In this document: positions 4,155-7,444 of the stretch, piece after piece | Position numbering within the stretch: position 1 is the first letter of the stretch | Layout of the letters: each line of letters opens with the position of its first letter | Source: Natrinema versiforme JCM 10478 | Lineage (GTDB): Archaea > Halobacteriota > Halobacteria > Halobacteriales > Natrialbaceae | Length of the DNA: 64,000 nt | Assembly (NCBI RefSeq): GCF_000337195.1 | Contig: NZ_AOID01000005.1 | Coordinates: 155,604-219,603 of the forward strand | Direction of reading: 5' to 3' | Translations under genes and position numbers: made by a program | The notes under the pieces: model-generated | What the model saw: only the letters and a program-made list of their open reading frames with translations | Told to the model about the DNA's origin: nothing | Database searches by the model: none

Positions 4155-5491
4155 CCGCGAGCGACGACGAGCCGCTCCTCCGGGCGACCGACCTCGAGAA
4201 ACACTACACGACCGCCGACGGCTTTCTCGATCGGTTGCTCGGCCGCGGGCAGACGGTCCGGGCGGTCGACGGCGTCGACCTCGAGATCCGCGAGGGCGAG
4301 ACGCTCGGGTTGGTCGGCGAGAGCGGCTGCGGGAAGACGACGCTCGGCCGGACGCTGCTTGGACTGCTCGACCCGACCGGCGGCACGGTCACGTACCGCG
4401 ATACCGAACTGACGAACTGCGCTCGAGCGGAACTGCGGGAGTTGCGGACCGAGATCCAGTACGTCTTCCAGAACCCGATGGCCAGCCTGAACCCGCAACT
4501 AACCGTCGGCGAAATCGTCGGCGAAGCCCTCTCGGTCCACGATATCGTTCCGCCGGAGCGCCGCGACGAGCGCGTTCGGGACCTGCTCGAGACGGTTGGA
4601 CTCCGGGCCGGGCACGCGAGCCGGTACCCCCACGAGTTCTCGGGCGGCCAGCGCCAGCGGATCGGCATCGCCCGCGCGCTCGCGGTCGAACCGTCACTGA
4701 TCGTCTGTGACGAGCCCGTGTCCGCGCTTGACGTCTCCGTCCAGGCGGGCATCCTCAATCTGCTGTCGGACCTGCAGGAGCAGCTCGGGCTCTCCTATCT
4801 CTTCATCGCCCACGACCTCTCGGTAGTCGAACACGTCTCCGATCGGGTCGCAGTGATGTATCTCGGCAAACTCGTCGAAACCGGGACGACTGCCGAGGTC
4901 TTCGACTCGCCCTCCCACCCCTACACCGAGGCGCTGCTGTCGGCCATCCCCGAACCCGACCCGTGCTGGGCGGGCGACCGGATCGTCCTCGAGGGAACCG
5001 TCCCGTCACCGACCGACCCGCCCTCGGGCTGTCGGTTCCACACTCGCTGTCCGCGAGTCATCCCGCCCGCGGAATACGATCTCGAGGAAGACGCGTTCCG
5101 CGCGATCATGACGCTTCGAACCCGACTCGCCGACGCGGACCCGGATGCGGGGCTCGAGGCGCTGTGCTCTCGGCCCGACCGGAGCGAGGATCTCACGGCG
5201 ACACTCAGGGAGGCCTACGACATCCCCCGACGACTGCAGGATCCCGACGCGGAGGCCGCGCTTTCGGACGCGCTCGAGAGCGCCGCGGCCGGCGACCTCG
5301 ACGCCGCACGCGAGCGCCTCGCCTCGGCGTTCGAAACGCCCTGTGAGACGAGCGAGCCGGCGCTATCGGCGGGTCCGGACCACCACCCGATCGCTTGCCA
5401 CCGGTTCGACGACCGGTACGAGTTGGACGACGCCGAAACCGACGCCTCGATCGAGCACGACGACCGATTCGCGCGAGGGAGCCAGCCATGA
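4151..5491 (+). CDS. ABC transporter ATP-binding protein, DppF/OppF type with enlarged C-terminal domain
   Basis: 446-residue partner ATPase. Walker A GESGCGKT is at 56-63, Q-loop [16 protein letters not shown] near 105-120, signature FSGGQRQR at 163-170, Walker B LIVCDEP at 183-189 and H-loop IAHDLS at 219-224. The C-terminal oligopeptide domain begins normally (GCRFHTRCP at 293-301), but its closing part (CETSEPAL ... HHPIACHRF, about 398-419) is separated by about 90 mostly helical, acidic residues. A usual DppF has these two pieces almost adjacent and is about 320-350 residues long. The gene overlaps the following gene by 4 bases (ATGA). Confidence 0.93.
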
Positions 5492-6018
5492 GACGGATCT
5501 ACGAGTCACGCGCGCTCGAGCGCGCAGACGATGATCCGTTCACTCCGGAGGGTGACAATGGCGAGGAGCCGGGACCGCGAACGATCGACTGGGCCGCGTT
5601 CAGCCACGCATTCACTCCGTTGGCGATTCGTCACCGCGGGATCAGCGTCGATGTCTCCACGGATAAACGGCGGTACGAGCGCGGTGAGTCGGTCGAAATC
5701 ACCGTCGAATTTCGCAATCGGTTCCCGTTCCCGATCCGTATCCGAACCGAGTCGCCGAACCGCTGGTACTGGACCGTCGACGGCCTGCGGAACGCCTCGC
5801 GGGTTCCGCAAGCGGTTCCCGACCGCCCGGCGGCGTTTTCCTTCGCTCGCGGCGAGCGCAAGCGGTTTCGCCGGGAATGGCCACAGCGAATTCAGGTCAC
5901 CGACGAGGAGTGGGAATCCGTCGATCCCGGCACCTACACGATCGGCGCGGGGATCTCCCGTTCGGACGCCGACGACCGGGGACTCGTCGATCGGGTCGAG
6001 ATCGAAATCGTGAGGTAA
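5488..6018 (+). CDS. hypothetical protein, predicted beta-sandwich (BsuPI-like)
   Basis: 176 residues from the ATG that overlaps the dppF-type stop as ATGA; an earlier in-frame ATG would lie inside dppF and was not used. There is no signal peptide or membrane segment. The middle (about residues 50-170) alternates short beta-like stretches: [36 protein letters not shown], a WYWTVDG segment and a closing [11 protein letters not shown]. That order (rigid beta strand, W-containing strand, Gly/Glu turn, PGTY strand) resembles the intracellular proteinase inhibitor BsuPI fold; this is inference from pattern only. As the last gene of the transporter operon it may be co-expressed with it. Function unknown. 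Confidence 0.7.
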
Positions 6019-6143
6019 AGGGTTGTGTTCGTCCGGTCGCTCATCTCACGGGCCGTTCTGGCTCCATCCCGTCTCGAGACTAGACGGAGAATATACGGTA
6101 CTCATCGCTCCGTTCTCCACTGTTACTGGCGTCGAGAAGTCTG

Positions 6144-6202
6144 GGAGAGTTGAACCACGCTGTCACCCTCACGTCGGTCGGGTGCCATCCGGTTCAAACT
6201 CC
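6144..6202. repeat. imperfect inverted repeat with tRNA T-arm-like arms
   Basis: The arms GGAGAGTTGAACC (6144-6156) and GGTTCAAACTCC (6191-6202) pair imperfectly, and a nested pair CACCC/GGGTG sits at 6164-6184. The GTTCAAA motif resembles a tRNA T-loop, but no acceptor or anticodon stem can be drawn, so it is not a tRNA. It precedes a second, similar element. Confidence 0.6.
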
Positions 6203-6247
6203 AATCATGCTATGGATGGCGCTCACGGATTTGATTGCGCCAAAACA

Positions 6248-6268
6248 TAGCGGGAGGTAGATTTGAAC
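6248..6268. repeat. 21-bp direct copy of the initiator tRNA 3' end (att-like)
   Basis: Bases 6248-6268 are identical to 6378-6398, the 3' terminal 21 nt of the tRNA-Met gene including the T-arm side. The copies are 130 bp apart and in the same orientation. Duplication of a tRNA 3' end is the usual footprint of tyrosine-recombinase integration. No integrase gene remains between the copies. Confidence 0.75.
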
Positions 6269-6306
6269 CACGGTCGCAGCGAAACTGCTCCCTGATTCAA
6301 ATCTAC
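6257..6306. repeat. inverted repeat built on the duplicated tRNA 3' end
   Basis: GTAGATTTGAACCA (6257-6270) pairs with TGATTCAAATCTAC (6293-6306), 13 of 14 positions, around a GCAG/CTGC inner stem. The left arm is part of the 21-bp tRNA copy, so an inverted copy of the T-arm has been appended to it. Confidence 0.7.
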
Positions 6307-6314
6307 TCGTCGTA

Positions 6315-6376
6315 TTTTCAGGGATTCAGGACTCACTCCTCGCCGTGCTCGTCGTTCGTCGTTGAATCCCTGAAAA
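6315..6376. repeat. 14-bp perfect inverted repeat immediately 3' of the tRNA gene
   Basis: TTTTCAGGGATTCA (6315-6328) is the exact reverse complement of TGAATCCCTGAAAA (6363-6376), separated by 34 bases. It abuts the tRNA 3' end at 6378. It could act in 3' processing or termination of the tRNA transcript, or be an arm-binding site left by a recombinase; sequence alone does not decide. Confidence 0.7.
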
Positions 6377-6377
6377 G

Positions 6378-6452
6378 TAGCGGGAGGTAGATTTGAACTA
6401 CCGGTCTGCGGGTTATGAGCCCGCCGGAATCTCCTGGCTATCCCATCCCGCT
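6378..6452 (-). tRNA. initiator tRNA-Met (CAT)
   Basis: Read on the minus strand, the acceptor stem AGCGGGA (6446-6452) pairs with TCCCGCT (6379-6385), with discriminator A at 6378. The anticodon loop is CTCATAA (anticodon CAT). Three consecutive G-C pairs (GGG/CCC) close the anticodon stem and the first pair is A-U, both diagnostic of archaeal initiator rather than elongator tRNA-Met. The T-loop GTTCAAATC is intact. CCA is not encoded. A TTAACTA element about 25 bases upstream is a plausible TATA box. The gene is complete despite the recombination-like scar beyond its 3' end. Confidence 0.95.
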
Positions 6453-6518
6453 ATCACATCATACCCGAGTGTGCTAGTTAAGGGTTGTGATTCGGTCGCC
6501 GTATGCGGGTTTCTACCG

Positions 6519-6965
6519 CTACTCCTGATGGACTTGCCACGTGTAGAGACTCTCACAGGTGTAGTTGACGAAGAAGCCGACGCCGATCCCGATCACGTTC
6601 GCTGCCATGAACCAGACATCGAATCGCTCGGTCAGCAGCGTCAGTACCGCGAGGGTGACCAGTAGCCCGCCGAACCGAACCGCGTTCGAGCGGCCAAATC
6701 GCCGCGCGAGTGGTCCGATCCCACTCTCGCCGTGGCTCGAGAACGTCCACTGCTCGTTGACCGCGAAGATGACTGCGATGCCGAGTTCCCACGCGATGAG
6801 CTTCGCGCCCCAGAGACCGAGCCCCGTGCCTCGGATCAGCAGGAAGAGGACGGCGTTGTCGACGGTCGCCCCGAGCGTCCCGACGCCGACGAACTGGCTA
6901 AACCGTGCCGTCGAGCGGAGCGCACGAATCCGCGTTCGAACGGCCTCTGACAGGGAGTTGCTCAT
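6519..6965 (-). CDS. GtrA family membrane protein
   Basis: 148 residues with four predicted membrane helices, the GtrA/DPMS topology. The first helix contains FSQFVGVGTLGATVDNAVLF, the family's N-terminal signature, and the end carries GVGFFVNYTCESLYTW, matching the conserved FxxNxxWTF-like close. Family members are thought to flip or position polyprenyl-phosphate-linked sugars for cell-surface glycan synthesis. No glycosyltransferase is adjacent here, so its pathway is not shown by context. It stands alone between the tRNA and the next minus-strand gene. Confidence 0.88.
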   Translation of the reverse strand: MSNSLSEAVRTRIRALRSTARFSQFVGVGTLGATVDNAVLFLLIRGTGLGLWGAKLIAWELGIAVIFAVNEQWTFSSHGESGIGPLARRFGRSNAVRFGGLLVTLAVLTLLTERFDVWFMAANVIGIGVGFFVNYTCESLYTWQVHQE

Positions 6966-7177
6966 CGTCGTATTCGATCTCGAGCGTATCGACCACTGTC
7001 CTCGGCTTCGGTTTCGCTCTTACGGTCGCTGTATTTAAATGTAATATATCCGTCCTGTTCACAACGGGTGGTTCGACGGGGGACGGTCGCCCTATGGGGC
7101 TCAGAAGGTGCACTTCGCTCGAGGGTGGGTCGGAGAATCGGTGCGTGGGAGCCGCGTATTCGCTCGAAAATCAGCCG

Positions 7178-7444
7178 TTAGATCGCCAGATCGCTCTTCG
7201 CTCGCACGACGTCGACGTCCTCGGCGTCGGCACGGTCGACGTCGAGGAAATGCGGCGTGAAGTTTCGTTTCTCGTAATCCTCGTACTCGTCCTCGGCACC
7301 GACGGTACACCAGAGTTGCACCCGCTCGGGACCGTGATACTCGCCGTTTCTGTTGATCCCGAAACAGACCACCTCCTCCCCTTCGTACCGGATGATCGCC
7401 CCGTTTCGAATCCCGGGATCGCCGTGGATGATGAGCTGCTTCAT
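7178..7444 (-). CDS. small conserved haloarchaeal protein (HAH_0734-like)
   Basis: 88 residues, soluble, acidic, no signal peptide. It begins MKQLIIHGDPGIRNGAIIRY and ends with a charged DVDRADAEDVDVVRAK tail. The compact beta-rich start and the repeated pattern VCFGINRNGEYHGPERVQLW look like a well-conserved small domain; I recall a haloarchaeal family named HAH_0734 with this profile, but cannot confirm it here. It lies just upstream of, and divergent from, the ribosomal protein cluster. Function unknown. Confidence 0.75.
   Translation of the reverse strand: MKQLIIHGDPGIRNGAIIRYEGEEVVCFGINRNGEYHGPERVQLWCTVGAEDEYEDYEKRNFTPHFLDVDRADAEDVDVVRAKSDLAI

Follow-up and report, generated by a model that had tools for sequence, protein, structure and literature searches.

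The repeats at the initiator tRNA gene of Natrinema versiforme JCM 10478 are part of a widespread family of gene-less units lying behind tRNA genes, and not a local scar. Examination of a stretch of 64,000 nucleotides (the window) revealed one intact and one decayed unit behind this gene. Our analysis favours, with moderate confidence, the interpretation of such units as gene-less, tRNA-specific mini integrative elements that would be moved by a recombinase acting in trans.

Anatomy of the repeats at the initiator tRNA gene

The tRNA-Met(CAT) gene, which we take to be an initiator (iMet) from its A1-U72 end and its GGG/CCC anticodon stem, is followed in its own direction by a unit of about 130 bp, whose segments succeed one another in the order D - a - I - b - D':

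6377-6452, minus strand: tRNA-Met(CAT) (ARAGORN; Rfam RF00005, 58.5 bits)
6378-6398, minus strand: D, the 3'-terminal 21 nt of tRNA-Met(CAT), running from the T-loop (GTTCAAAT) to the acceptor end
6308-6376, minus strand: segment a, 69 nt, with oligo-T straight after the tRNA and then a 14-bp hairpin (6315-6328/6363-6376)
6295-6307, minus strand: I, an inverted T-arm, complementary to D at 11 of 13 positions
6269-6294, minus strand: segment b, a 26-nt hairpin, CAGGGAG...CGACCGTG
6248-6268, minus strand: D', an exact copy of D (21/21)

Behind the intact unit, positions 6137-6247 form a decayed and older unit built on the same plan, the segments of which were read from the sequence:

6203-6247, minus strand: segment a, with a layout as in other tRNA flanks
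6191-6202, minus strand: I, degenerate
6156-6190, minus strand: segment b, with 80% similarity to sequence flanking the second iMet gene of this genome
6137-6155, minus strand: D', degenerate, belonging to the T-arm repeat family at 6143-6159

The preliminary description of this DNA had reported a 21-bp direct repeat of the tRNA 3' end, and 6248-6268 is indeed identical to 6378-6398 at all 21 positions, the pair being extendable to 29 nt at 90% in a repeat search. Two inverted repeats that it had placed at 6257-6306 and 6315-6376 were both recovered by that search, as 6257-6273/6290-6306 (17 nt, 88%) and 6315-6328/6363-6376 (14 nt, 100%). A third, at 6144-6202, is also real and corresponds to the inverted pair within the second, degenerate copy of the layout, for which the repeat search gave a direct T-arm copy at 6143-6159. 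The inverted copies had been called harder to explain by simple excision; they are a regular component of the unit. As had been claimed for these 130 bp, there is no integrase gene between the D and D' copies of the window, and a scan of 5400-7200 against Rfam with E up to 1 gave the tRNA as sole match.

Units behind other tRNA genes

Searching the host genome with 6130-6460 as query gave six places: the query locus itself, two overlapping places at the second iMet gene, and three hairpins resembling segment b, behind tRNA-Arg(cct), tRNA-Thr(cgt) and tRNA-Gly(gcc). Segment b of the intact unit thus has relatives in other tRNA flanks of its own genome. When a copy was defined as the last 24 nt of the tRNA recurring at a minimum of 18 of 24 positions within 300 nt downstream, 17 of the 44 tRNA genes of this genome had a copy of their own 3' end behind them. 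Among 5' flanks of 600 nt, 18/24 was reached by none but the two pairs of tandemly duplicated tRNA genes (Asp and Gly), the remaining flanks staying at or below 15/24 in direct orientation. A slightly different rule gave 18 of 44 for this genome, but one of these, at +351 of tRNA-Gly(gcc), is the neighbouring tRNA gene, and the figure of 17 is used here. Under that rule, three sister species (G022, G011 and G021) had 3' copies at 11 of 31, 10 of 31 and 9 of 29 tRNA genes, these being the genes examined out of 46, 46 and 45 matches, and their 5' flanks had 1, 1 and 0 copies. Copies of the 3' end behind tRNA genes are above chance.

The preliminary description had proposed a motif search of other haloarchaeal tRNA genes for the inverted T-arm pattern, and such a search found it widely. 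An exact pattern of the I-b-D core (GATTTGAA-N20-50-GTTCAAATC) matched 114 of 146 genomes of the order, and the reversed pattern none of 146 genomes of the same order. A further survey of 196 genomes gave matches in 35: 30 among the 33 genomes of the order, and 5 among 163 of the phylum outside it. The scar of a single provirus, as the repeat had been read at the outset, does not account for a layout that recurs at many tRNA species across the order.

With a strict pattern (GGGATTTGAA-N22-52-GTTCAAATCCC) searched in GTDB genome contigs, at least 120 stretches were found, 80 of which were examined. A tRNA gene on the same strand lies upstream within 1.5 kb in 70 of these 80, mostly 30-80 nt off. 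At 48 of the 70 tRNA-linked loci D' agrees with that tRNA at all of its 21 nt, the pattern itself fixing 11 of them. The other ten loci comprise four that are non-haloarchaeal, three at the edge of their stretch, two with a tRNA recognised by eye, and one (L183) without an adjacent tRNA. The four non-haloarchaeal loci (L125, L149, L197 and L200) look like chance matches or tRNA fragments and were rejected as units. Three of them, L149, L197 and L200 (Nitrosocosmicus), are T-arm palindromes with a common GTGC / GCAC flank, resembling tRNA 3' fragments and unlike the haloarchaeal units. In four genomes, 24 pattern rows correspond to 19 places, 18 of which are behind tRNA genes; the nineteenth comes after an island, about 13.2 kb long, in the tRNA-Gly(tcc) gene of G011.

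On other replicons, positions 6248-6400 of the window matched two records of the plasmid collection; in Haloferax gibbonsii pHG2 an iMet gene is followed by two units in tandem that are nearly identical. Initiator-like tRNA-Met(CAT) genes occur on large secondary replicons at L120 (Haloferax gibbonsii pHG2) and L121 (a Natronorubrum aibiense plasmid). The strict pattern had no match in viral_contigs, and in the phage collection all of the 20 matches listed, out of 22, fell on the tRNA part of the query.

Common plan and folding of the units

The plan was examined in 61 units from four genomes, a set that was not purged by hand and may include weak members such as that at tRNA-Tyr of G011. D' equals the end of its own tRNA at 20 of 20 positions in 35 of the 61 units and at 18 or more in 58. 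First units (n=47) have a median length of 128 nt, with a range of 89-372 nt. Segment a had seemed, by eye, to end in an inverted piece of the acceptor at iMet; this was rejected as a general feature, with 4.76 of 8 matches against 4.77 under permutation in 58 units. Oligo-T often lies between the tRNA and the hairpins.

A larger set of 171 units, likewise not hand-purged and possibly holding weak members, includes 31 tRNA labels, and the initiator tRNA, where a repeatedly used att site had been called notable, is thus not special. In the same analysis the five stem bases of I followed the neighbouring tRNA, matching it at 2.80 of 5 bases compared with 2.25 for permuted tRNAs (0 of 2000 permutations as high). 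Segment b in this set most commonly starts with CAGGG (39), CAGAC (12) or TAGAC (11) and ends with CCGTG (36) or GCGTG (27). When pairing of positions 5-11 with the 3' half was scored across 151 distinct b segments, an offset of +1 gave 671 paired cells out of 1054 (63.7%), compared with 29.6-41.2% at the other offsets from -3 to +5 and 43.7% (sd 1.4) when the 3' half was borrowed from another b. At one pair of the xAGA class (n=44) there is covariation, with G-C in 23, C-G in 10, A-T in 5 and T-A in 2; at the remaining b pairs it is no higher than with shuffled partners. Given this one-base-offset pairing and covariation, b acts as a hairpin in which the D' side is longer by one base. An earlier measure of hairpin asymmetry, equal in 135 of 150 cases, is uninformative because the outer stem continues into b. 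Folding exceeds that of shuffled sequences in segments a (median z -2.56, n=162) and to a lesser degree in segments b (median z -1.03, n=153), control stretches having a median z of 0.00 (n=174).

Variation between relatives

A constant size of this locus among related genomes had been named as the sign of a local duplication; we found instead that the number of units varies. At the iMet loci of 29 relatives, D copies counted automatically at 17 or more of 24 positions number 0 (11 loci), 1 (13) or 2 (5), and more remnants are visible by eye. By eye, segment a is of two types at these loci and either type may come first; units with similar a segments can contain dissimilar b segments. No integrase-bearing element was found between the 21-nt copies at the iMet loci examined. 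Extra iMet copies in G002, G012, G017 and G020 were considered as element ends and rejected, 8 of 11 loci being iMet genes without a unit behind them. This unit-less second class of iMet genes (L094 and L097-L103, in the same four genomes) includes three near tRNA-Ala(tgc), a vicinity that suggests rRNA operons for those genes.

The duplicated 3' end had been proposed as an attachment core and behaves like one: units are present or absent exactly at the tRNA 3' end in sister species. At four loci, in five comparisons, one species has directly behind its bare tRNA the flank that another has behind D' (empty/filled genome):

tRNA-Gly(tcc): G021/G000
tRNA-Ser(gga): G000/G021 and G000/G011
tRNA-Glu(ttc): G000/G021
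tRNA-Arg(tct): G000/G011

The identity of these flanks over 80 nt is 0.71-0.95, random pieces having a mean of 0.46-0.49 and a maximum of 0.56-0.72; the flank is a palindrome at Ser, an older unit at Glu and Arg, and plain only at Gly(tcc). In the 3' flank of tRNA-Ser(gga) a conserved palindromic stretch of about 80 nt (TATACCGTCA...TGACGGTATA) is found in G000, G011 and G021, directly behind the tRNA or behind its units.

Arrays vary as well. Four units stand behind tRNA-Val(tac) in G011, one each in G000 and G021, and none in G022. By eye, tRNA-Ser(cga) has the same two types of unit in G017 and G020, with their order swapped. The nearest relative of a segment is at the same isoacceptor in another genome for 22 of 60 a segments and 16 of 61 b segments (2.6 expected for each), with no excess of relatives at another tRNA of the same genome (13 for a and 11 for b, 15.0 expected), although some b segments are alike at different tRNAs. 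This excess at the same isoacceptor, without one inside the genome, fits tRNA-specific lineages. At single empty and filled sites, loss by crossing-over between D and D' could give the same picture; for arrays of unlike units, gains offer the easier explanation.

Islands and SNJ2-type integrases

Outside the window, the host genome carries an island of 15.4 kb in tRNA-Arg(tcg) (L107, C13:16294 to about 31810), bounded on one side by the complete tRNA gene and on the other by 22 nt copied from the 3' end of that gene. An integrase gene, whose product has 42.8% identity to the integrase of virus SNJ2, adjoins the far end, where the copied tRNA 3' end is immediately preceded by a b-like hairpin; no hairpin resembling a was found at the tRNA side. 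A survey of 30 loci with related integrases, among the matches listed, gave five at which hairpins abut a T-loop core 5' of the integrase: L347 (the same tRNA-Arg(tcg) island), L356, L358, L364 and, less surely, L363. The hairpin of L356 has CAGGG...CCGTG ends and, by reading, the same one-base offset as b, and the island end of L358 recurs almost identically in the adjoining sequence (by eye). A hairpin arm was not seen at the other 25 loci, two of the surveyed loci (L348 and L354) showing a short copy of the acceptor end and, behind it, an old unit.

Six SNJ2-like viruses had no T-arm hairpin by eye in the stretches examined, and the eight plasmid records inspected in the same way, out of 26 with SNJ2-type integrases, had no unit-like arm. 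A search of viral_contigs with the integrase of the host genome gave two stretches matching the peptide pattern, none of them confirmed, and no unit-like arm. In G011, the tRNA-Gly(tcc) island (L332, G011:C2:461600-477000; about 13 kb) has an old unit behind it, and its att of about 41 nt covers the tRNA 3' half and reaches the anticodon loop, so that it is of a different class from the att of the units. Since the arm was not seen at 25 of the 30 loci or in the viruses and plasmids examined, nor an a-like hairpin at the tRNA side of the host's own island, an SNJ2-group tyrosine integrase is the best lead to a putative mover of the units and not a result.

Discussion

We judge the units to be non-autonomous, tRNA-targeted integrative elements. 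Under the proposed mechanism, a unit D-a-I-b of about 130 bp would recombine with a tRNA gene at D; recombination would duplicate D and leave the tRNA whole, the unit ending up between the tRNA and its old flank. Repeated events would build arrays, in which preservation would tend to be best in the unit nearest the tRNA. The arm I-b-D', in its folded form, may serve as recognition element for a recombinase supplied in trans, a candidate for which is an SNJ2-group tyrosine integrase. That units move, and in which direction, is read from comparisons of sequence; they would be excised and inserted as a circle or as a single strand, and at single sites gain seems to us the more plausible direction than loss. 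As for the tyrosine-recombinase integration first proposed, the class of event and the core-like duplication are retained, and the scar of one provirus is given up.

One alternative, along the lines of the preliminary description, holds that full-size elements, SNJ2-type or other, integrated at the tRNA genes and later lost all but their two ends. Such elements exist, with true islands at tRNA-Arg(tcg) in the host genome and at tRNA-Gly(tcc) in G011, and unit-like cores with hairpin arms stand at the integrase end of five islands. Remnants of this origin would hardly be expected to share one size and layout at many tRNAs, the first units having the median of 128 nt given above, nor to form arrays of up to four units; the host's own island moreover lacks an a-like hairpin at its tRNA-side end and the G011 island has a longer core, of about 41 nt. 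Recurrence and uniform layout rule out a simple provirus scar as the sole account, and we regard the broader reading as unlikely. Host recombination would dispense with a recombinase altogether: units would arise and be lost by duplication in tandem and by switching of templates at the palindromic T-arm. The D repeats are able to recombine, and the near-identical tandem units of pHG2 are in keeping with this process, but sequence-specific b ends common to different tRNAs, covarying stems with one fixed offset, arrays of unlike units and a family mainly confined to one order speak against it, and we consider it quite unlikely.

The units might also have a function for the tRNA genes, as an RNA or DNA element such as a trailer, a terminator or a processing signal. 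Their location behind tRNA genes, the covariation in b and the stable hairpins of a would all agree with such a role. Against it, presence, number and type of units vary between sister species at one and the same tRNA, oligo-T often separates the tRNA from the hairpins, I would compete with the tRNA's own T-arm, and no Rfam family besides tRNA was matched around the locus; a role of this kind therefore appears very improbable to us. Compared with these three accounts, non-autonomous integration remains the reading we retain.

Integron attC sites are palindromic folded sites with a variable tip and a one-base asymmetry, and integron cassettes form arrays of unlike tandem units. Our units may be likened to them in form only, by array, palindrome, variable tip and one-base asymmetry; unlike integron cassettes, those seen carry no cassette genes, and their platform is the tRNA 3' end. 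A bolder version of the mini-element reading would make tRNA genes integron-like platforms, at which single-stranded I-b-D' hairpins are recombined by an archaeal tyrosine recombinase; the extra base in the hairpin would then mark the strand, the arrays would be gene-less cassette arrays, and the arms would track the target tRNA. We put this forward tentatively, thinking it unlikely.

Direct core repeats on both sides and the empty and filled sites are shared with site-specific integrative elements at tRNA genes, from which the units differ in having no integrase gene of their own. SNJ2-type elements (the betapleolipovirus SNJ2 and haloarchaeal islands) likewise integrate at tRNA 3' ends. In a review of archaeal tyrosine recombinases (PMC8371274), the SNJ2 att is a stem-loop-free sequence of 13-14 nt, and the words 'miniature' and 'non-autonomous' are absent from that review; compared with this att, the copy in a unit begins at the T-loop and has hairpins before it, and the unit carries no gene. 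Haloarchaeal MITEs and palindrome-ended PATEs are also short, non-coding, palindromic and present in many copies, but the units differ in their location at tRNA 3' ends and in carrying a duplicate of 21-22 nt of the tRNA; PMC3119063 mentions MITEs, PATEs and prophage tRNA duplications in Haloquadratum and ties PATEs to IS605-type transposons. The tRNA fragments described in PMC9897764 are likewise 3' fragments downstream of a whole gene; they bound elements of about 9-23 kb, whereas in the units only some 100 bp are enclosed, made up of non-coding hairpins. According to PMC12558985, circular tRNAs that are whole and have CCA at their junction, including tRNA-Met, are reported only in haloarchaea. 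In the titles and abstract beginnings of the open-licence literature, outside which most subscription journals lie, we found no description of this family of units.

If this interpretation is right, a large share of the tRNA genes in an archaeal order carry fast-changing mini-elements, and many tRNA 3' fragments would find their explanation in them. It would also suggest that a group of archaeal tyrosine integrases works with attachment arms that fold and has dependants without genes, and raises the testable question of whether an archaeal tyrosine recombinase acts on folded single-stranded sites. The units would then constitute a readable record of recombination beside essential genes.
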